From: Actinoalloteichus hymeniacidonis
GTDB lineage: Bacteria; Actinomycetota; Actinomycetes; Mycobacteriales; Pseudonocardiaceae
NCBI RefSeq assembly: GCF_014203365.1
Contig: NZ_JACHIS010000001.1
Coordinates: forward strand, 4,588,001 to 4,652,000
DNA: 64,000 bases
Direction: 5' to 3'
The translations under genes were made by a program, and so were the position numbers. Below are positions 38,487 through 53,639 of the stretch, piece by piece (position 1 is the stretch's first letter; each line of letters begins with the position of its first letter). Under the pieces are notes generated by a model. That model did not search any database and had not been told where the DNA came from. It saw only the letters and a program-made list of their open reading frames with translations.

Positions 38487-39506
38487 ATGCACGCAGACCG
38501 GCGACCACCACAGTCGGCGCCGCCGGAATCCGCACCGGTACCGGACCCGGCCCGAAAGACTCCCCTCGGCGGTCCGCAGGACGCCACCCGGCGCGACGAA
38601 CTAGCCGAGGCATTGGCCAACGGACCGTTCAGCGACGCACTGCGGCTGGCCATCGAGGTGAACGGCCTCAGCCTGGACCGGCTGCAGCGACGGTTGGCCG
38701 ACCGAGGTGTGCGCGTCAGCCTCACGACCCTGAGCTATTGGCGGCACGGGCGAAGCAGGCCGGAGCGCCCGGATTCACTGCGCGGTGTCGGCATCCTGGA
38801 AGAAGTGCTCGGCCTGCCGGAACGGTCTCTCATCGGTCTGCTCGGTCCGCGTAGGCCCCGTGGTCGGTGGGTCACTCGAGGCCACGGCACCGTGGACCTG
38901 GACCAGCTCTGGACCGAACCCGAGACGATTCGCCAGCTGCGCGCGCACATCGACCTGCCGCCGCCGAACCAGCTCAGCCCGGTGAGCGTCCAAGACGTCG
39001 TGTTGGTCGGTTCGCAACGCGACGAACGGGCCGTCCGCACTCGAATGGTGATGGAAGCCGCCGTGGGCGGGGTGTTCCGCAGTTTCCTGGTCTACCGCAC
39101 CGAACCCGAACGCGCGGTGGCGATCACCGCGACCCGGCATTGCACGCTCGGCACGGTCATCCACGACCCGAGCGGATTCATGATCGCCGAGCTCGTGCTG
39201 GACCGAACGCTGGCCGAGGGCGAGACCACGATCTTCGAATACGAGGTCGTGGCGCAGCCCGGCGAACCGATCCTGTACCACGACCGACGTTTCGTGATGC
39301 CGACTCGGCAGTACGTCCTCCAGGTCGAGTTCCAGCCCGACATGCTGCCTGCGCGCTGTGTGCGTTACCACCGGCCCAACGCCGATTCCGAGCCACAGGG
39401 CGTGCACGAGGTCGCCATCGGCGCCTCGCACACCGCCCATGTGATCGAACTCGACATGGCTCCCGGCATCTACGGCATGCGCTGGGACTGGCCGGAACTC
39501 GGATGA
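38487..39506 (+). CDS. helix-turn-helix regulator (XRE-like) with C-terminal sensor-like domain
   Basis: A 339-residue protein from ATG 38487 with GAGGAGG upstream. A disordered Pro-rich N-terminus is followed by a helix-turn-helix (SLDRLQRRLADRGVRVSLTT, then YWRHGRSRPERP) at about residues 61-95. The C-terminal 200 residues are beta-rich and highly conserved in style, without a motif I know. It is a common actinobacterial architecture; target genes are unknown, though the divergent or adjacent metabolic genes are candidates. Confidence 0.8.
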   Translation: MHADRRPPQSAPPESAPVPDPARKTPLGGPQDATRRDELAEALANGPFSDALRLAIEVNGLSLDRLQRRLADRGVRVSLTTLSYWRHGRSRPERPDSLRGVGILEEVLGLPERSLIGLLGPRRPRGRWVTRGHGTVDLDQLWTEPETIRQLRAHIDLPPPNQLSPVSVQDVVLVGSQRDERAVRTRMVMEAAVGGVFRSFLVYRTEPERAVAITATRHCTLGTVIHDPSGFMIAELVLDRTLAEGETTIFEYEVVAQPGEPILYHDRRFVMPTRQYVLQVEFQPDMLPARCVRYHRPNADSEPQGVHEVAIGASHTAHVIELDMAPGIYGMRWDWPELG

Positions 39507-44516: not shown

Positions 44517-44999
44517 TTACGGTTCGTTTCCTGCTTGGTCGGAGAGCATCCGAAGGCCGCTGAGCAGCCCGCCCACCAGGTCGCCCTCCTTGAAGGACGC
44601 GACCATGCTCATCACGGCGAGTTTGCAGCTGCGGTTCGGCACCCGTCGGGCGGCCTCGCCCCCGGTGACCACCTCGACCACTCGGCCCGCCGGTGACACG
44701 GCGATCAGCAGCGCATCCCGCGCCGAGGCACCCATGGAGGCGTGCAGTTCCTCGGCCCGCGCTCGGCTGTCCTCGCCGAGGGCACCGAGATAGATGCTGA
44801 AGTCGAGGCCGGTGGAACGCCCCGCCAACGTCAACGCCTCATCGAGCCTGGCCAGCTGCGATGGCGTGAACGGCAAGGCGGGTTCCTGAGTCACAAGCCT
44901 GCGGGCGACCGACACGCGGCCGGTGTGGGTCACCACAGCGCCCAAGCCGTGCTCGGCGTTGTCGACCTCCACTCGGCGGGTCAGTTCACCAGTTCCCAC
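44517..44999 (-). CDS. DUF5130 / TPM-domain-like protein
   Basis: A 160-residue protein. GTG 44999 is chosen because GGGAGG lies five bases upstream; GTG 45005 would overlap that site. Segments such as TLAGRSTGLDFSIYLGAL, DALLIAVSPAGRVVEVVTG and VMSMVASFKEGDLVGGLLSGL fit the DUF5130 family (M. tuberculosis Rv2468c-like). Related TPM-domain proteins act in photosystem or envelope quality control, but the actinobacterial role is unknown. It overlaps the upstream small membrane gene by 14 bases. Confidence 0.82.
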   Translation of the reverse strand: MGTGELTRRVEVDNAEHGLGAVVTHTGRVSVARRLVTQEPALPFTPSQLARLDEALTLAGRSTGLDFSIYLGALGEDSRARAEELHASMGASARDALLIAVSPAGRVVEVVTGGEAARRVPNRSCKLAVMSMVASFKEGDLVGGLLSGLRMLSDQAGNEP

Positions 45000-45267
45000 G
45001 AGCACCTCCCCTGGCCGTCGACGCGATTCGGTCGTCGTCGCCCTCTACCTGGTCCCCGTGCTCCTCGGCGGTGGCGGCCCTGGCCCGCTGGGCATCGCTC
45101 AGCCCTGCGGGGTTCGCGGTCCACCACACCGGTTGGAAGTCCCACTCCTGGCCTGGGCGATAGCGCGCAGCCCGAGCGGTCTTCTGCCGCAGGGTCAGCA
45201 TCGCCACCACGCCGCAGATGACCAGGGGGATCAGCACGAAGACGAGGATTGTCTCCACTACGGTCAC
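44986..45267 (-). CDS. small single-helix membrane protein (Rv2468A-like position)
   Basis: A 93-residue protein from GTG 45267, or longer from 45297. One N-terminal helix (VETILVFVLIPLVICGVVAML) is followed by a charged soluble part with a conserved-looking PGQEWDFQPVWWTANP segment. It overlaps and precedes the DUF5130 gene. Function unknown; the pairing with DUF5130 is conserved in M. tuberculosis as I recall. Confidence 0.75.
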   Translation of the reverse strand: MTVVETILVFVLIPLVICGVVAMLTLRQKTARAARYRPGQEWDFQPVWWTANPAGLSDAQRARAATAEEHGDQVEGDDDRIASTARGGARGNW

Positions 45268-45738
45268 GCCTCGTACGGTAGCCCACCAGCCGACCACCAG
45301 GGTGTCTGCGTGTCCAGGGCAACCGATGCCATCGGCTGCGCATCGCCGCCGAGATCGTCCCCCGGCGCGTAATCGACCACCGGCTCACCGATGAACGAAC
45401 GGCGGCGGAGTCTGCGCGCCCGCCCACGGTCGGTCTCCGCAAGGACCGCACACAGCGGAACCAATCATCACGCTACGAATCTGATTCGATACCGACCGTT
45501 GCCTTCGGCTTATACCCTCACTACGTCGGGTAATTCTTGAAGTAGGGAGTTGGCAGCCGATAGATCACTCGGTCAGACCAACAAGCTCCCCCGTTCGGAC
45601 CCGAGCCAGAAGGGGGTGAATGCCACTCGCATTGGCGGCTTGTCCTGCTCCGCTCAGCTCTCTACTTTCACCTGTACAGGCCTTGAACTACGGCGTAATC
45701 CGGGAATTCACTCCGATCAATGTCAAGGAGATGACGAG
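45268..45738. other. upstream region of the AGVRVTR repeat gene
   Basis: About 470 bases between the membrane-protein gene and the repeat-peptide gene. Base composition falls clearly toward AT in 45480-45740. A promoter is expected, for example around TTGCCT (45497) and TATACC (45512), but spacing is not ideal. No structured RNA is evident. A frame upstream of 45739 is open but has no good start. Confidence 0.35.
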
Positions 45739-46251
45739 ATGCTTACCAACTCTCTCATTTGGAGTAACTCCGCCACCCGATCCAGGGATAGCCGCGCTAC
45801 CGACCGACACAGCAGCTGGGCAACTCTCCGTATTGAGGCTTCCCTTCTCACGTCCGGTGTCCGGGTGACGCGGCAAACACCCTCCGCAGGCGTCCGAGTG
45901 ACCCGCGCCGAGTCCCCCACCGCCCCCACGGCAGGCGTGCGGGTCACCAGAGGACGCGACATCATCTCGACTCCGGCGACGACGACCTGCCTACCGTCGG
46001 CAGGCGTGCGGGTGACCAGACAGTCGCCCTCGGCAGGCGTTCGGGTCACCCGTCGGCAGCCGAGCGCGGGAGTGCGCGTCACCAGAGCGGGAGTGCGAGT
46101 GACCCGGGCCGGAGTCGGTGTTACCAGGGCGGGCGTCCGAGTCACACGGAATGCGCCGACCGCCGGGGTCCGCGTGACCCGGCGACAGGACGACCACGTC
46201 GATCGATCGACGTGCCGCGCAGGTGTCCGCGTCACTCCCGGCGGCCGCTGA
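45739..46251 (+). CDS. repeat peptide precursor with eleven AGVRVTR heptads
   Basis: A 170-residue protein from ATG 45739, with AAGGAG eight bases upstream. Residues 1-38 are a Ser/Arg/Thr-rich leader. Eleven heptads follow at 45853, 45886, 45931, 46000, 46033, 46066, 46087, 46108, 46129, 46162 and 46219. Nine read AGVRVT with a final Arg or Pro unchanged otherwise; the first has Ser for Ala, the eighth has Gly for the central Arg, and the last ends in Pro. Heptads 6-9 are contiguous. Others are joined by QTPS, QSPS, RQPS, NAPT or longer linkers, two of which hold the only Cys residues. The final Arg uses CGG, CGC, CGT, AGA and AGG. I know no named family. It resembles a multi-core RiPP-type precursor, but this is inference. 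Confidence 0.75.
   Translation: MLTNSLIWSNSATRSRDSRATDRHSSWATLRIEASLLTSGVRVTRQTPSAGVRVTRAESPTAPTAGVRVTRGRDIISTPATTTCLPSAGVRVTRQSPSAGVRVTRRQPSAGVRVTRAGVRVTRAGVGVTRAGVRVTRNAPTAGVRVTRRQDDHVDRSTCRAGVRVTPGGR
45853..46239 (+). repeat. eleven degenerate 21-bp repeats (AGVRVTR units)
   Basis: Tandem to spaced 21-base units of the form GCN-GGN-GTN-CGN-GTN-ACN-(CGN/AGR). Nucleotide identity between units is only moderate because third positions vary, while the peptide is almost constant. Three copies carry AGA, a rare codon in such GC-rich genomes. On the opposite strand the same bases read VTRTPA units. Confidence 0.9.
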
Positions 46252-46389
46252 GCAGCATCGCCGATCGCAGCCATACCGCCAGGAATCCCCGATTGAGAAT
46301 TCCTCCGAACACCGATGACACCGACGGACCGTCTCGACCGGTGGCGGTCAGACGGCGCGCAGCCGATCAGGCGGGCGGGCTCGCAATGC

Positions 46390-47064
46390 TCACGCTGCGG
46401 GCTCGCCCAGGTAAGGCAACCACAGCGGATCGGTCTCGCCACCTGCCAACAACCGCCAATAGGGCCCAGCAGGCGCCCTCGGAGTCACCAGCAGACGCCA
46501 CCCGAGTTCACGCAACAGCCGGTCGGCCTTGCGGTGATTGCATCGGGCGCAGGAGGCGACGCAGTTCTCCCAGGAATGGCTTCCGCCTCGGGAACGCGGG
46601 ACCACGTGATCCACGGTCTCCGCGCGACCGGCGCAATACGCGCAGCGATACCGGTCCCGCAGCATCAACGCCGCCCTGGTCAGGGGCACCCGCCCGCGAT
46701 AGGGCACCCGCACGAATCGGCTGAGACGGATCACCGAGGGCACTGCCTGCGCGGTGTCGACCGAGTGCACCGCCAAGCCCTGGGGGTCGTCGTGCACGAC
46801 TTCGGCCTTGCCGCAGATCACCAACACGACGGCGCGACGCAACGGCAACGCCGCCAGCGGCTCGAAAGTGGCATTGAGCAGCAGGACCTGCCGCCGGGCC
46901 CAGGGCGACATCGGGGCAGGCTTCGGGACGGGCAGCCCCGGTGACGGAGTCGGCTGTGCTCTGACTATGCTCGGCGAACAGATCTTGGCGCCCGCCGTGC
47001 GCACGACAGCGTTCGGCGCCCACTCCGCAGGAGCGCCGACCGAAGTGGGTTGTCGATCTGGCAC
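46390..47064 (-). CDS. HNH endonuclease-domain protein (Rv2469c-like)
   Basis: A 224-residue protein. GTG 47064 is preferred because GGAGGT lies six bases upstream; the similarity typical of the family starts only at residue 52 (MSPWARRQVLLLNATFEPL). The HNH domain has two Cys pairs (CAYC and CARC) that bind zinc, with the catalytic segment TVDHVVPRSRGGSHSWENCV. The N-terminal half (ATFEPLAALPLRRAVVLVI) is shared by a widespread actinobacterial family of unknown role. It converges on the repeat-peptide gene. Confidence 0.87.
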   Translation of the reverse strand: MPDRQPTSVGAPAEWAPNAVVRTAGAKICSPSIVRAQPTPSPGLPVPKPAPMSPWARRQVLLLNATFEPLAALPLRRAVVLVICGKAEVVHDDPQGLAVHSVDTAQAVPSVIRLSRFVRVPYRGRVPLTRAALMLRDRYRCAYCAGRAETVDHVVPRSRGGSHSWENCVASCARCNHRKADRLLRELGWRLLVTPRAPAGPYWRLLAGGETDPLWLPYLGEPAA

Positions 47065-47252
47065 GCAACCACCTCCACTGGTACGGGAACCAGTCGACCA
47101 CACTTCGTGCCGTCCTCGCACTCCTGAATCGCCAACCGGTCGGTGAACACCGCGTTTCCCGCCGCCCCGGCACGCCCGGTGCCTCCAGAGATCGCCGCGA
47201 CGCGCGCCGGGTTGGTGGCCGCGAGAATGGGCCGTTCTCCTAGAGTGCGGCG

Positions 47253-49370
47253 ATGGCCACCGACTCGCCGAGCTACCCCGATGCGATCCGCTGGGATCTC
47301 ACCGACGACCTGCACGGGCAGATGATCGCCGATCCGTACCGCTGGTTGGAGAGCCCCGAGGACCCGGCGACGCTGCGTTGGCAGGAGCAACAGGACGACC
47401 TCGCCACCACCGCTCTCGGATCGCTGCCCGGCCGGGAACGGTTGACACGTCGGCTCACCGAGCTGGCCAGTGCGGGGTCGGTCTCGGTCCCCGTATGGCG
47501 CGCGGGGCGCGCGTTCTTCACCCGCAGGCGGCCCGGCGAGGACCATCCGGTCTTGTACGTGCGCGACACCGCCGAGGACGGCACCGTCACCGAACGCGTC
47601 CTACTCGACATGAGCAGCTGGGATTCCAGCGGTCGCACCACGCTGGACACCTGGTCGCCCAGTAGGGAGGGCGCACTGCTCGCATTCCAGGTGTCGGTGG
47701 GCGGCGACGAACACTCTCTGCTCCACGTTCTGGACGTCGACAGCGGCGAGATCGTCGAGGGTCCGATCGACCGATGCCGATACTCCCCGGTGTCCTGGCT
47801 GCCGGGCGGCCGCGAGTTCTTCTACGTGCGACGGCTGCCCGCCCAGGAGGTGCCGGAGGACGAGGCCCAGTTCCACCGCCGAGTCTGGCGGCACACGGTC
47901 GGCACCGACCCGACATCCGATGTCGAGATCCACGGCGCCGGGCTCGACCACACCAACTACTACGGGGTCCGGGTCTCGGCCGACGGGCGCTGGCTCATCG
48001 TCGACGCCCGACCGGGTACCGCGCCGAGGAACTCGACGTGGATCGCCGACCTCGCAGCGGGCGGTGAGCTCCGCCTGATCAGCGACGAGGCCGAGAACGC
48101 GATGGTCCACGCCTGGGTCGGGCGCGACGAGCGGCTCTACCTGCTGACCACCCGCGACGCGCCGCGCTGGCGGCTCTGCGTCACCGCACCGAGCACTCCG
48201 GAACCCGCCCACTGGCAGGAGCTGATCGCCGAGGACGACGACTCGGTCCTGTCGGACATCGGTTGGCTGCCGGGCACCGACGAGGTTCCGGCGCAGCTGA
48301 TCGTGCTGCGATCTCGGCACGCGGTATCGGAGTTGTCGCTGCACGATCCGGCGAACGGTGCCAAGACCGGGTCCATCGACCTGCCCGGCCCCGGCACCGT
48401 CACCTCGCTGTCCACCGTGGACTCGCGCACCGACGTCGATGGCGATCGAGTCTGGTTCGGTTGGACGGATTTCCTGACTCCGCCCGGTGTGCGTGGCTAC
48501 TCGGCCACCACCGGGCGGGAAAGCCTGGTGGAGGCCGCTCCCGGCTCGGTGGCACCGCCTGTGGTGCACAGCGAGCAACTCGTGTACACCTCCGCAGACT
48601 CCACCCCGGTGCGACTTTTCCTGATCCGTCCCGAGGCCGCTGCACAGTCACCCCGTCCGGCGATCCTCACCGGTTACGGCGGGTTCTCGGTCAGCAGGCG
48701 CCCGGCCTACAGCTCCGCCGCGCTCGCGTGGGTGGAGGCAGGCGGGATCTGGGCCACCGCCTCGCTGCGCGGCGGCGGCGAGGAGGGCGAGGCCTGGCAC
48801 CGGGCCGGGATGCGGGAGAACAAGCAGAACGTCTTCGACGATTTCCACGCCGCGGCAGGCGAACTCATCGAGCGCGGATTGACCACTCCGGAGCAACTCG
48901 CGATCATGGGCGGCTCCAACGGCGGTCTGTTGGTCGGTGCGGCATTGACGCAGCGCCCGGAGCTCTACCGGGCCGTGGTGTGCTCGGCGCCCCTGCTGGA
49001 CATGGTGCGATACGAGAGGTTCCTGCTCGGTCGAACCTGGAACGACGAGTACGGCAGCGCCGACGACCCCACCGAGCTCGGCTGGTTGCTGAGCTACTCG
49101 CCGTATCACCGCGTGATCGAGGACGTGGAATACCCGTCCGTGCTGTTCACCGTGTTCGAGTCCGACAGTCGGGTCGATCCCTGTCATGCCCGCAAGATGT
49201 GCGCAGCCCTGCAACACGCCACGCTGGGCACCATCGAGAAGCGGCCGATCATTCTCCGCAGGGAGACCGAGGTCGGCCACGGCTCTCGATCCGTCACCCA
49301 GGCAGTCGCCCTCTCGGTCGATCAACTCGCCTTCCTCGCCAACGAGACCGGACTGGATCTCGTCGGTTGA
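47253..49370 (+). CDS. prolyl oligopeptidase family (S9A) serine peptidase
   Basis: A 705-residue cytosolic peptidase from ATG 47253. An N-terminal segment (YPDAIRWDLTDDLHGQMIADPYRWLE) and a seven-bladed beta-propeller precede the alpha/beta-hydrolase domain. The triad is Ser in IMGGSNGGLLVG, Asp in FESDSRVDPCHA and His in EVGHGSRS. No signal peptide is seen. Enzymes of this family cleave short peptides after Pro, or after basic residues in oligopeptidase B relatives. It is divergent from the HNH gene and 1 kb from the repeat-peptide gene. Confidence 0.92.
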   Translation: MATDSPSYPDAIRWDLTDDLHGQMIADPYRWLESPEDPATLRWQEQQDDLATTALGSLPGRERLTRRLTELASAGSVSVPVWRAGRAFFTRRRPGEDHPVLYVRDTAEDGTVTERVLLDMSSWDSSGRTTLDTWSPSREGALLAFQVSVGGDEHSLLHVLDVDSGEIVEGPIDRCRYSPVSWLPGGREFFYVRRLPAQEVPEDEAQFHRRVWRHTVGTDPTSDVEIHGAGLDHTNYYGVRVSADGRWLIVDARPGTAPRNSTWIADLAAGGELRLISDEAENAMVHAWVGRDERLYLLTTRDAPRWRLCVTAPSTPEPAHWQELIAEDDDSVLSDIGWLPGTDEVPAQLIVLRSRHAVSELSLHDPANGAKTGSIDLPGPGTVTSLSTVDSRTDVDGDRVWFGWTDFLTPPGVRGYSATTGRESLVEAAPGSVAPPVVHSEQLVYTSADSTPVRLFLIRPEAAAQSPRPAILTGYGGFSVSRRPAYSSAALAWVEAGGIWATASLRGGGEEGEAWHRAGMRENKQNVFDDFHAAAGELIERGLTTPEQLAIMGGSNGGLLVGAALTQRPELYRAVVCSAPLLDMVRYERFLLGRTWNDEYGSADDPTELGWLLSYSPYHRVIEDVEYPSVLFTVFESDSRVDPCHARKMCAALQHATLGTIEKRPIILRRETEVGHGSRSVTQAVALSVDQLAFLANETGLDLVG

Positions 49371-49401
49371 TCGACCTATCGCCGAGTGGGAGCAACGACG
49401 T

Positions 49402-50007
49402 ATGAACCGCATCCTGCGCACGACCCTCTGCACCACCGCGTTTGCAGCGCTGGCGTTGTCCGGGTGTTCCAACGACGTTGGGGGCGAGGTAACGACCGTC
49501 GATCAGGCGGTGGCCGATGCCGAGGCATCTTCGCCCTCCGATGAGGAACGCACCGTCGACGACCTCGACGTCGATGCGGCGGCGCAGAATCCCTGCGTGC
49601 TCCTGACAGACGAGCAACTCGCGGGCTTGCAGTTGGTCGAACCCGGTGAGCTTGATGAATCGGGCGGCGTCGGGCAGTGCAGCTGGTCCAACCGGGAGAG
49701 CACCTCGGTGAAGCGGCTCTTCGCTGGCCGCGATGATGTCGCCGGTGGTATCGCCGAACTCACCGCGAACTCCGCGAGTTTCCCTTTCTTCGAGGCCGGC
49801 ATCGAGGTCGCAGGCAGGCCAAGCGTGCACTACGACACGATGGCGGAGCCGATCGGGCAGTGCTCGGTTCAGGTCGATCTCACCGCCGACAGCGCGCTCC
49901 TGATCACCGCATACCTGGCAGAAGAGGACCCGGCCTACCACGACCCGTGTACGAAGTCCGACGAGATCGCCAGCCTGATGATCGAGAACATTCATGCCGG
50001 TTTTTGA
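49402..50007 (+). CDS. DUF3558 lipoprotein, copy 1
   Basis: A 201-residue lipoprotein from ATG 49402 (MNRILRTTLCTTAFAALALSGCSND). The lipobox is LSGC. The DUF3558 core follows an acidic linker, with NPCVLLTDEQL, QCSWSNRES and DPCTKSDEIASLMIENI supplying conserved Cys residues. It is a close paralogue of the gene at 50761. It starts 31 bases after the S9 peptidase and may be read with it. DUF3558 lipoproteins are frequent beside type VII loci in Pseudonocardiales. Confidence 0.88.
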   Translation: MNRILRTTLCTTAFAALALSGCSNDVGGEVTTVDQAVADAEASSPSDEERTVDDLDVDAAAQNPCVLLTDEQLAGLQLVEPGELDESGGVGQCSWSNRESTSVKRLFAGRDDVAGGIAELTANSASFPFFEAGIEVAGRPSVHYDTMAEPIGQCSVQVDLTADSALLITAYLAEEDPAYHDPCTKSDEIASLMIENIHAGF

Positions 50008-50392
50008 GACGGGGCGCCATCATGGAGGGAAAGGCGTTCCCTGCCCGTTGGTCGGGCAGTCGACCCGACGGTCGATCAGCCCGCATATCCAATCGACGAA
50101 ACGGGATTGGATCCTGCTGATTGATCACATCGAGCCAGCCCGTTGCCGGTCGGTCCGGTGACCGGTCGCACCGCCGGAACCCGCAGGCCACGGTAGGCGC
50201 CCAGGTTTCGGTATTGCCATGTTGTCCGTACACCAGATGGATTAATCTTGAGTGGAGGCTCGAACTAGCCCACGCGCCGGGAGCTTCGGCGACGCAGGGT
50301 GGTCGGGCGACCACTGGGGAACCGTTGATCTTTTTGCGGCGTCTCAGTAGGGACGATCACGTCGATGACCTGGAGACCTGGAGAGAAGCACG
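50008..50392. other. intergenic region before the ESX-like locus
   Basis: About 385 non-coding bases, less GC-rich around 50210-50260. A weak promoter-like pair, TTGTCC (50222) and TAATCT (50243), is the only element I can suggest. Confidence 0.35.
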
Positions 50393-50764
50393 ATGGAAGA
50401 CCGCGGATATCCCACCGATCCTGGACCCGGCCCCGCCGTCAGTGGTGGGTCGTTCGAGGTCGACCCGGAGAACATCCAGAAGCTGATCGACGGGCTCAAT
50501 GAGGCGATCGATGAGCTCAACGACATCAGTCGTGACGCAACGTCCCGTCTCGGCCAACTGCAGCCACCAGGTGCAGACGACTACAGCACCGGCGCTGTGC
50601 GGTTGATCACCGACCGAGTCTTGGAAGATGACGGCGCGCATGGTGCGGCGAACAAGGCCTTCCGCGAGGCGCTGGAGGCCACCGTCGACAACCTCACCAC
50701 CACGCTGAACGAGTACCGACGCATCGAAGAAGAGAACTCGCAGATCGGAAACATCGACGTATGA
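50393..50764 (+). CDS. small helical ESX-like (EspC/WXG100-type) protein
   Basis: A 123-residue acidic helical protein with no signal peptide. Two long helices (SFEVDPENIQKLIDGLNEAI and the AHGAANKAFREALEATVDNL region) suggest a hairpin as in WXG100 proteins, although no WxG is present. The C-terminus carries a YxxxE element (YRRIE, residues 108-112), the type VII export signature. Its stop overlaps the ATG of the next DUF3558 gene (ATGA). It probably forms a heterodimer with the PPE-like protein encoded two genes later. Confidence 0.75.
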   Translation: MEDRGYPTDPGPGPAVSGGSFEVDPENIQKLIDGLNEAIDELNDISRDATSRLGQLQPPGADDYSTGAVRLITDRVLEDDGAHGAANKAFREALEATVDNLTTTLNEYRRIEEENSQIGNIDV

Positions 50765-51396
50765 ACCGCACCCTGCGCAGCACTCTCTGCGCCACGGCAC
50801 TTGCAGCACTCGCATTGGCCGGGTGTTCCAACGAGACTGGCGGCGAAGCCACACCCTCCGGCCCGACCACAGACGCTCCCGGCGAGACCTCGGCCGCAAC
50901 CGACACCGAGACGTCTGGTGCAGAAGGAGACCGCGCCGTCGAAGACCTCGATATCGGTGGCGGGGCCGAGGACCCATGTTCGCTACTGACCACAGATCAG
51001 GTCACCGGATATGGATTCGCAGAGGCTGGCGAAGTTCGCGAGTCCGGAGTGAGCACACCGGAATGCAAATGGAGCAACCGGGAAGGCACTTCGCTTACGG
51101 ACGTCTACGTCCATCACGACAACACACCTGGCGGGCTCACCGGTTTGATCTCGCGAGAAGCGAACTTCCCGTTCTTCGAGAGCGGAGTCGAGGTCGTGGG
51201 CCGACCTGCTGTGCATACCGACATCACAGCCGCCCCCGAAGGGCAATGTTCGACCTACGTCGACCTCACTGCTGACAGCACGCTGTCCATCTACGTCTAC
51301 ATCTCCGAAGACGACGCCGCTGCCTACAGCGACCCGTGTGCCAAGGCCGACGAGGTGGCCGCGCAGGTGATCGAGAACATTCAAGGGGGGATCTGA
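50761..51396 (+). CDS. DUF3558 lipoprotein, copy 2
   Basis: A 211-residue lipoprotein from ATG 50761 (MNRTLRSTLCATALAALALAGCSNE). The lipobox is LAGC, followed by a Thr/Glu-rich linker and the DUF3558 core (EDPCSLLTTDQVTGYGF, ECKWSNREGT, DPCAKADEVAAQVIENI). It is clearly duplicated from the 49402 gene. It lies between the small helical protein and the PPE-like gene, separated from the latter by one base, so all three are one transcript. Confidence 0.88.
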   Translation: MNRTLRSTLCATALAALALAGCSNETGGEATPSGPTTDAPGETSAATDTETSGAEGDRAVEDLDIGGGAEDPCSLLTTDQVTGYGFAEAGEVRESGVSTPECKWSNREGTSLTDVYVHHDNTPGGLTGLISREANFPFFESGVEVVGRPAVHTDITAAPEGQCSTYVDLTADSTLSIYVYISEDDAAAYSDPCAKADEVAAQVIENIQGGI

Positions 51397-51397
51397 G

Positions 51398-52795
<1,398 letters not shown>

Positions 52796-52806
52796 TACGA
52801 ACAACC

Positions 52807-52843
52807 CACGCACCGGACAGGTGGTTCACCTGTCCGGTGCGTG
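52807..52843 (+). terminator. hairpin between the PPE-like gene and espG
   Basis: A perfect 17-bp stem CACGCACCGGACAGGTG/CACCTGTCCGGTGCGTG with a 3-base loop, 11 bases after the PPE-like stop and 19 before the espG start. It should terminate or attenuate the transcript, giving less chaperone than substrate. Confidence 0.85.
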
Positions 52844-52862
52844 ATCGCGATCGGGAGCAAGG

Positions 52863-53639
52863 ATGTTGCGGAGCAAGATCACCATCTCCAACGTGGCCTA
52901 CGACGTCTTGTGGGAGCAGGAGAAGCTCGAAGACAAACATCTCGCGCTGCGCACGAAGTCCCCGGGAAGAACCTTCGATGAACGCCGTGAGCTGGTGGAC
53001 CAGGCATGGCAGGAGCTCGGCAGGTTGGGGTTGGCCAGGGGCCGTGAGGCGCATCCCGATCTTGTCGACGCCCTACACCTGATCAAGCGGGCCGCTATCG
53101 AGTTCTACGGCTGGTTCAGCAGCGGGAAGAAGGACACTCGATCCGCGTTGGCCGTGGCACACGGCGAACAGGCCCTGCTCGCCGAGCTCGTCGACGACGA
53201 GTTGAGCTTCGCGCCACTGCGCTCCACCGGTCTGATCGACGGTCTGGTCTCCGCGCTGCCGCCCAATCCCGGCGGTCGAGGACGCTCCTTCAATTTCCCC
53301 AAGGCGGCGTTCTCCGGTGGGGACAAGCCCTCAGCGCAGAACGACCTGGGTTTCGAAGGGTCCTCCGGCGGTAACGGCGGCACCGACATCAAGGCGTTGA
53401 AACAGCTGCTCGGGCAGCCACGTTCATCAGCGGGGCAGCTCTACGTCGCGCGCCGCGACCGCTTCGGGAAGCGGCATCGCGTCGAGAACGCGCTCAGCTT
53501 CTTCGACCCGCCGCCCGGCCGGTACCTCGCGCAGGAGACCCCTGGTCCCGACGGCACCACCTGGATGGTCGTCGCGCCCGCGAACGCCAGGGCCCTGTCG
53601 GCACGGCTGTCCGAGATGGTGGGGACGCTTCCCAGCTGA
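52863..53639 (+). CDS. espG: ESX secretion-associated protein EspG
   Basis: A 258-residue cytosolic chaperone of type VII substrates. ATG 52863 follows GGGAG and AAGG. The family core is AGQLYVARRDRFGKRHRVEN followed by ALSFFDPPPGRYL near the C-terminus. An N-terminal beta-strand region and a central helical part (ALHLIKRAAIEFYGWFSSG) agree with EspG structures. EspG binds PPE proteins and keeps them soluble; the adjacent PPE-like gene is the obvious client. Confidence 0.9.
   Translation: MLRSKITISNVAYDVLWEQEKLEDKHLALRTKSPGRTFDERRELVDQAWQELGRLGLARGREAHPDLVDALHLIKRAAIEFYGWFSSGKKDTRSALAVAHGEQALLAELVDDELSFAPLRSTGLIDGLVSALPPNPGGRGRSFNFPKAAFSGGDKPSAQNDLGFEGSSGGNGGTDIKALKQLLGQPRSSAGQLYVARRDRFGKRHRVENALSFFDPPPGRYLAQETPGPDGTTWMVVAPANARALSARLSEMVGTLPS

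Follow-up and report, generated by a model that had tools for sequence, protein, structure and literature searches.

A gene family of Pseudonocardiaceae encodes repeated copies of an arginine-centred pentapeptide and may specify short-lived multivalent arrays

The window, a stretch of 64,000 nucleotides from Actinoalloteichus hymeniacidonis, contains a member of a gene family whose products are built from many copies of one Arg-centred pentapeptide. The array protein is probably of a kind not yet described, and the family is confined, as far as sampled, to the soil-bacterial family Pseudonocardiaceae. Our preferred reading, which we hold tentatively, is that the gene would encode a short-lived, multivalent array of the pentapeptide motif.

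The window protein is sequentially composed of a leader, a repeat region and a short tail (Table 1). The initial annotation had placed a gene with a strong ribosome-binding site here, and its ATG, Shine-Dalgarno sequence and stop codon are all found where it put them. The leader it described is also present and measures 39 residues instead of about 38. The annotation further read eleven nearly identical AGVRVTR heptads. The eleven units are real: eight are exact copies of AGVRVTR, one is SGVRVTR, one is AGVGVTR and the final one is AGVRVTP, giving the protein an AGVRVTPGGR terminus. However, the unit under selection is the pentad rather than the heptad. One 5-mer occurs ten times in the protein, compared with a maximum of three in 2000 residue shuffles. 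The free codon variation that had been noticed around a fixed peptide is borne out: in the five core codons, the units show a mean pairwise nucleotide difference of 0.04 at first, 0.00 at second, and 0.65 at third positions. AGA, AGG, and CGN codons all occur for the Arg that follows the core, as had also been noted.

Table 1. Positions of the array gene, its control signals and its conserved neighbors in the window
Feature	Position	Strand	Remarks
DUF5130/TPM-domain gene, divergent	44517..45005	-	Pfam
Small divergent gene, 103 aa	44986..45297	-	No Pfam match; next conserved neighbor
-35-like hexamer TTGTCC	45640..45645	+	17 nt before the -10-like hexamer; predicted from conservation
-10-like hexamer TACTTT	45663..45668	+	Often TAGCTT in relatives; assigned by eye; overlaps start of the element
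Conserved element TTTCACCTGTACAGGCCTTG	45666..45685	+	20 bp; spans predicted transcription start
Shine-Dalgarno AAGGAG	45725..45730	+	Read from the sequence ahead of the ATG
Array gene	45739..46251	+	170 aa: 39-residue leader, eleven GVRVT-type units, tail PGGR
Leader, 39 codons	45739..45855	+	Resembles leaders in two other genomes of the genus
Repeat region	45856..46236	+	Ten GVRVT, one GVGVT; spacings 7 to 23 aa
HNH endonuclease gene, convergent	46390..47121	-	Pfam HNH; syntenic anchor

Related loci were anchored on the convergent HNH neighbor, and the best 80 of 471 HNH relatives were kept as named loci, a sample that consequently leans to near relatives. An array of 3–51 pentads is present in the same place and orientation in 79 of these 80 best of 471. 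The sole named locus lacking an array, L091 from a metagenome bin, also lacks the start-site element described below. Searches with the window protein gave matches in all three genomes of its genus, its own included, and weak matches in a few other genera of Pseudonocardiaceae. The initial annotation had tied its reading to the existence of orthologues outside the strain, and these are present in many genera of the family. A class-wide protein search with an Amycolatopsis member, L094, matched 18 of 296 sampled genomes, the match in one of them (G070) being a Pseudonocardiaceae array itself; in the 18 loci fetched outside the family, no frame holds more than one core word. No match was returned by a plasmid search with L094 or by a phage search with the window protein, although the low-complexity filter may mask such queries. 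Pfam and NCBIfam gave no convincing match for the array family, and the window protein lies below the cut-off of every curated family searched in them, in agreement with the earlier remark that no described family is known to have this core. No description of the family was apparent in the literature searched, most subscription papers being outside its reach.

The array gene is preceded by a putative promoter in which a conserved element would span the transcription start. The family consensus of the element is TTTCACCTGTACGGNCCTTGC. A CTTGT or CTTGC sequence lies 18–32 nt upstream of it in all 79 cases (the window and 78 named loci from the best 80 of 471); a strict-consensus promoter scan found no promoter. 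The first 14 bases of the element are present, with at most two mismatches, in 77 of the 80 named loci (best 80 of 471). Of 120 sampled family genomes, 86, representing 35 of 46 genera, contain exactly one copy of the 20-base element, and a reversed-pattern control was found in 1 of the 120. Outside the family, the element was detected in 2 of 171 genomes of the order (a sample of 200 genomes, 29 of them in Pseudonocardiaceae), with one mismatch each and no repeats behind. When the element was used to fetch 35 family loci, 34 of them proved to have repeats downstream. The array starts 70–75 nt after the start of the element in 66 of the 79 named arrays (best 80 of 471), and the distance is 52–53 nt in 11 Lentzea arrays of the same sample. 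The outliers among these best 80 of 471 are one array at 79 nt, a value that depends on automatic start choice, and that of A. caeruleus, which has no recognizable element (genome G025). An SD-like site precedes all 79 named array genes (best 80 of 471), partly by construction, as the start choice favored it.

Family genomes without the element were also inspected. Fifteen of 34 were followed up and an HNH locus was obtained in 13, with an array in five and no array near HNH in eight, including the truncated locus L134. The one exception among the loci fetched by the element, L109 (G140), has no repeats downstream; its array may have been lost naturally with the promoter element retained.

Array proteins vary widely in size. 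L142 (G066) is a minimal member of 31 residues, in which a 7-residue leader is followed by four contiguous GVRINR units. At the other extreme, the Actinokineospora arrays L025 and L041 possess 47 and 51 units and a net charge of about +65. A different repetitive ORF was seen on the minus strand of L181 (G398), from another family; it carries many CRHPRA-like units and none of the pentad core words.

Across the family, the selected unit is the pentad [GS][VTI]R[VI][TSNH]. Among the named loci (best 80 of 471), the core is GTRVT in 40, SVRIT in 21, and GVRIS in nine; rarer cores in the same best 80 of 471 are GVRIH, GVRVN, and GIRVN, in two loci each, and GTRIT, GIRVT, and GVRVT, in one each. 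The entropy over 1690 pattern-found cores in 107 distinct proteins is 0–1.2 bits within the core and 2.1–3.1 bits in the flanks, where the core values are partly fixed by the search pattern and the far flanks of hexad arrays already include the next core. Under a stricter core pattern, 1688 of the 1690 words are of the gene's own type. A pattern-independent count, based on words matching their own gene's core at three of five positions (n = 1730), contains 1662 exact words and 1714 that retain Arg at position 3. Inexact words number at most two in 100 of the 107 proteins and exceed two in L025, L037, L041, L043, L095, L098, and L143. Each genome thus uses essentially one core.

The residue following the core is far less constant. 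Its frequencies in the 107 proteins are A 0.35, R 0.33, G 0.13, M 0.06, S 0.06, and C 0.05. Because this residue varies family-wide, the AGVRVTR 7-mer is a local form of the pentad; only in the window's genus is the core usually followed by Arg. The 7-mers and 11-mers ending in VTR that the initial annotation had predicted are therefore a feature of the genus, and cleavage after Arg does not hold as a rule, since the trailing Arg is not conserved across the family. The core-to-core spacing ranges from 6 to 40 residues; it is mixed in 68 of the 107 genes and constant in 39.

The pentads are under strong purifying selection. Within-gene pN/pS has a median of 0.034 and a maximum of 0.43 over 105 genes with at least five repeats, far from the value of one that the initial annotation had set against selection on the peptide. 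The repeats of a gene are well diverged at synonymous sites, with pS of 0.26–0.72 and low pN. Mapped onto a phylogeny built from 87 HNH proteins, the ten cores and the state 'none' require 11 changes, as compared with a minimum of 10 and a shuffled mean of 40.4; the bootstrap of this tree is unsettled and some branches are weak. On this mapping, the core word clearly behaves as a clade trait. Switches are also seen at short range. Within the genus Prauserella, P. muralis uses GTRVT and P. shujinwangii GVRVT. The GVRVT array of P. shujinwangii and the GIRVT array of A. caeruleus show low pS values of 0.256 and 0.307, respectively, suggesting that a switch may occur when an array re-expands from a variant unit. 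Core switching may simply follow such a re-expansion, with no co-evolution of a partner.

The genes surrounding the array are well conserved. The HNH gene, the small divergent gene and the DUF5130 gene are each present in all 80 named loci (best 80 of 471), and pepN is present in 73 of the same best 80 of 471, some loci ending early. Pfam scans of ten window neighbors revealed an aldehyde dehydrogenase, an Rv2466c-like protein, a peptidase M1, DUF5130, HNH, a prolyl oligopeptidase, DUF3558, and MscS, and two were unmatched. The prolyl oligopeptidase gene is close to the window array, yet it is found in only 39 of the 80 named loci (best 80 of 471). In other families of the order, 14 of 15 sampled genomes contain HNH relatives; none of their 17 loci, which clearly include paralogues, has an array within about 1.5 kb. 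These array-free HNH genes, and those in 8 of the 13 element-free family loci, contradict the array being an obligate partner or antitoxin of the HNH enzyme, and the HNH gene is not thought to be part of the array system.

Several other features of these regions were recorded. In the Streptoalloteichus loci L021 and L036, the small divergent gene, elsewhere close by, is set apart from the array promoter by about 3.8–4.5 kb of extra DNA. Positions 49186–53639 of the window resemble an ESX-type secretion cluster, in which names were given by eye except for DUF3558. The stretch includes two similar adjacent lipoprotein-like genes, the second of which (50761–51396) matches DUF3558, as well as a 123-aa WXG100-like ORF, a Gly-rich ORF of 465 aa, and an EspG-like ORF. 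A 339-aa ORF on the plus strand (38487–39506) has good codon bias and no Pfam match.

Many array proteins end in LAA. This C terminus is found in 50 of the 107 proteins, with LAG in two. Among the best 80 of 471 loci, LAA ends 43 of 79 array proteins but none of the 591 remaining coding-like ORFs that reach 200 aa. The tails, which include QSDYALAA, NDFSLAA, and RITALAA, often conform to (Y/F)(A/S/T)LAA. The tmRNA tags end in ALAA in all 15 genomes sampled, and the LAA tails of the arrays resemble the tags of the family. The LAA tail is likely an ssrA-like degron, through which ClpXP would clear the protein. It is not universal, as the window protein ends in PGGR, in a genome whose tmRNA tag ends in EYALAA. 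Other array proteins end in TAA, RIS, VTA, or RVN.

These features can be combined in a tentative model. Each pentad would serve as an independent short linear motif and dock in a groove on a single host partner, an interaction that we infer from the repeat pattern. The variable linkers and the copy number would set the valency, and the array protein would act as a titrating decoy or a scaffold. LAA-tailed arrays would be rapidly cleared by ClpXP, so that their level would follow transcription from the element-controlled promoter. The loose spacing (6–40 residues, mixed in 68 of 107 genes) suits motifs that act independently better than it suits a fixed solenoid. On the other hand, the single spacing in 39 of 107 genes would also suit a regular fold, and multivalency would be weak in L142, with only four units, and in two Kutzneria genomes, with only three units each. 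Further points against the model are the PGGR end of the window protein, the family loci with HNH but no array, the element without repeats in L109, the absence of both in L091, the array without a recognizable element in A. caeruleus, and the possibility that cores switch by re-expansion with no co-evolving partner. There is no support for the pentads mimicking a host motif that is conserved. An exact-core DNA search for GVRIH, restricted to CGN codons, covered three genomes, two of which carry a GVRIH array; in these two it gave 2 and 3 matches beyond the array, with no host protein evidently in common.

The main alternative, though rather doubtful, is a multi-core peptide precursor, from which an unspecified protease would free many short genus-specific peptides serving as a signal or natural product; the cores might possibly be modified by enzymes encoded elsewhere. 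A leader followed by near-identical cores under strong purifying selection would suit such a precursor, and so would the variable copy number and the change of core by clade, as in peptide signals. Among actinobacteria, thiovarsolin precursors offer a precedent for short cores in repeated copies (PMC6511847). The leader and repeated cores on which the initial annotation based its multi-core RiPP are thus present, but no flanking residue is conserved family-wide as a cleavage site, and no RiPP-modifying enzyme or exporter family was found among the ten window neighbors scanned with Pfam. The lack of such an enzyme among these ten neighbors, the unconserved trailing Arg and the loose spacing together make an Arg-cleaved multi-core RiPP not the best reading. 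In addition, the leader is reduced to seven residues in L142, and the LAA tail of 50 of the 107 proteins would route a precursor to ClpXP, which is hard to reconcile with cores that must survive.

A regular β-solenoid or fiber, in which the pentads would be β-strands stacking into a helix or needle, is unlikely. The core alternates β-branched residues, and the spacing of GTRVT is 6 in 685 of 880 cases. Array proteins give weak profile matches to hexapeptide β-helix enzymes, and the SVRIT members L022, L024, and L049 exceed the Pfam cut-offs of DUF2345 and DUF3540, with some SVRIT members also exceeding those of ChapFlgA or Pirin_C_2. However, three of six scrambled-core controls, constructed from the L049 linkers and permuted core letters, exceed the cut-off of a DUF2345, Gp5_C, Gp5_trimer_C, or RTX model. 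Alternating repeats in general can therefore give β-helix-type hits, which are not specific, and such hits in Pfam, NCBIfam, and the PDB were discounted as evidence. None of the six controls gave a DUF3540, ChapFlgA, or Pirin_C_2 hit, and these hits were discounted on judgement only. Among members with GTRVT, GVRIS, or GIRVN cores, none of those scanned exceeds a profile cut-off. The modal unit length, which is 6, 7, 8, 9, or 11 depending on clade and core type, and the existence of proteins with three or four units also argue against a solenoid.

Two further functions are quite improbable. In the first, ClpXP would not destroy the LAA-tailed polyprotein but cut it, and the pentad-bearing peptides would serve as an internal or exported signal. 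If true, this would amount to a private peptide language of Pseudonocardiaceae, in which each clade keeps, and changes wholesale, its own word. In the second, which we rate equally low, a basic repeat protein would bind nucleic acid through its arginine array. Arg is indeed the best-kept residue, in 1714 of 1730 words, and many members are strongly basic, the net charge of the 107 array proteins having a median of +17 and a maximum of +66. However, the charge reaches down to −10 and is zero or negative in 19 of the 107, every one of the SVRIT type. With a range from −10 to +66, a general electrostatic role on nucleic acid is unlikely.

It is extremely improbable that the DNA or RNA repeat itself is functional, as a binding-site array, an antisense transcript or a selfish minisatellite, with an incidental ORF. 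In its favor, the copy number is variable and at least one antisense frame is open in 70 of 107 genes (none is open throughout in 37). Against it, variation among the core codons of the window array is concentrated at third positions and hardly touches the first and second. AGR and CGN codons are mixed at the core Arg in 56 of 108 array genes, and AGY and TCN codons at the core Ser in 15 of 25. The sense strand retains the start, the SD-like site and portions of the leader. When 27 5′ leaders were folded singly, no RNA fold common to them was apparent by eye, and all Rfam matches lie below the gathering score.

An antisense ORF with VTRTPA repeats (45723–46442) overlaps the window array gene. 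In the frame of this ORF, the wobble positions of the two strands lie opposite each other, and variation at third positions therefore cannot by itself identify the coding strand. The sense strand is favored by the conserved element, the ATG, the SD-like site, the split Arg and Ser codons, and a stop that interrupts the antisense frame in L003, an orthologue within the window's genus. On the basis of this stop, the sense-side start signals and the split codons, the antisense ORF was ruled out as the coding strand.

The start-site element recurs in 35 of the 46 genera sampled from this family, which includes many antibiotic producers. The pattern of the cores predicts one partner or one peptide product, with a reading of five residues and a specificity that differs by clade. 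The array would thus offer a way into a new system of regulation or signalling in Amycolatopsis, Saccharopolyspora, Saccharothrix, and their relatives.

The array proteins share single features with several known systems. Like ssrA-tagged ClpXP substrates produced by tmRNA, 50 of the 107 have an LAA end; however, the array tail is gene-encoded and placed after the repeat array, and the window protein lacks it. Pentapeptide-repeat proteins consist of contiguous A[DN]LXX pentads, whereas the array core is [GS][VTI]R[VI][TSNH] and is separated by linkers; no pentapeptide-repeat model was among the Pfam hits of the array proteins. LbH hexapeptide proteins and VgrG/gp5 needles also have short repeats with alternating β-branched residues, and account for some of the profile matches, but the unit length of the arrays differs between clades. 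Repeat prohormones, such as yeast α-factor and FMRFamide precursors, contain many copies of one short peptide per chain. The arrays similarly carry many copies of one strongly conserved short peptide, but without a conserved processing site and with no secretion signal apparent by eye. The thiovarsolin precursor VarA is composed of a leader and up to five imperfect repeats with a short Arg-bearing core, and varA has YcaO, TfuA, ATP-grasp, amidinotransferase, and transporter genes as neighbors (PMC6511847). VarA resembles the array protein in being actinobacterial and in joining a leader to repeats with a short Arg-bearing core. The array system differs from it in that none of these neighboring genes is seen among the ten neighbors scanned, the copy number rises to 51, the core is fixed within clades and switched between them, and an LAA tail is common.
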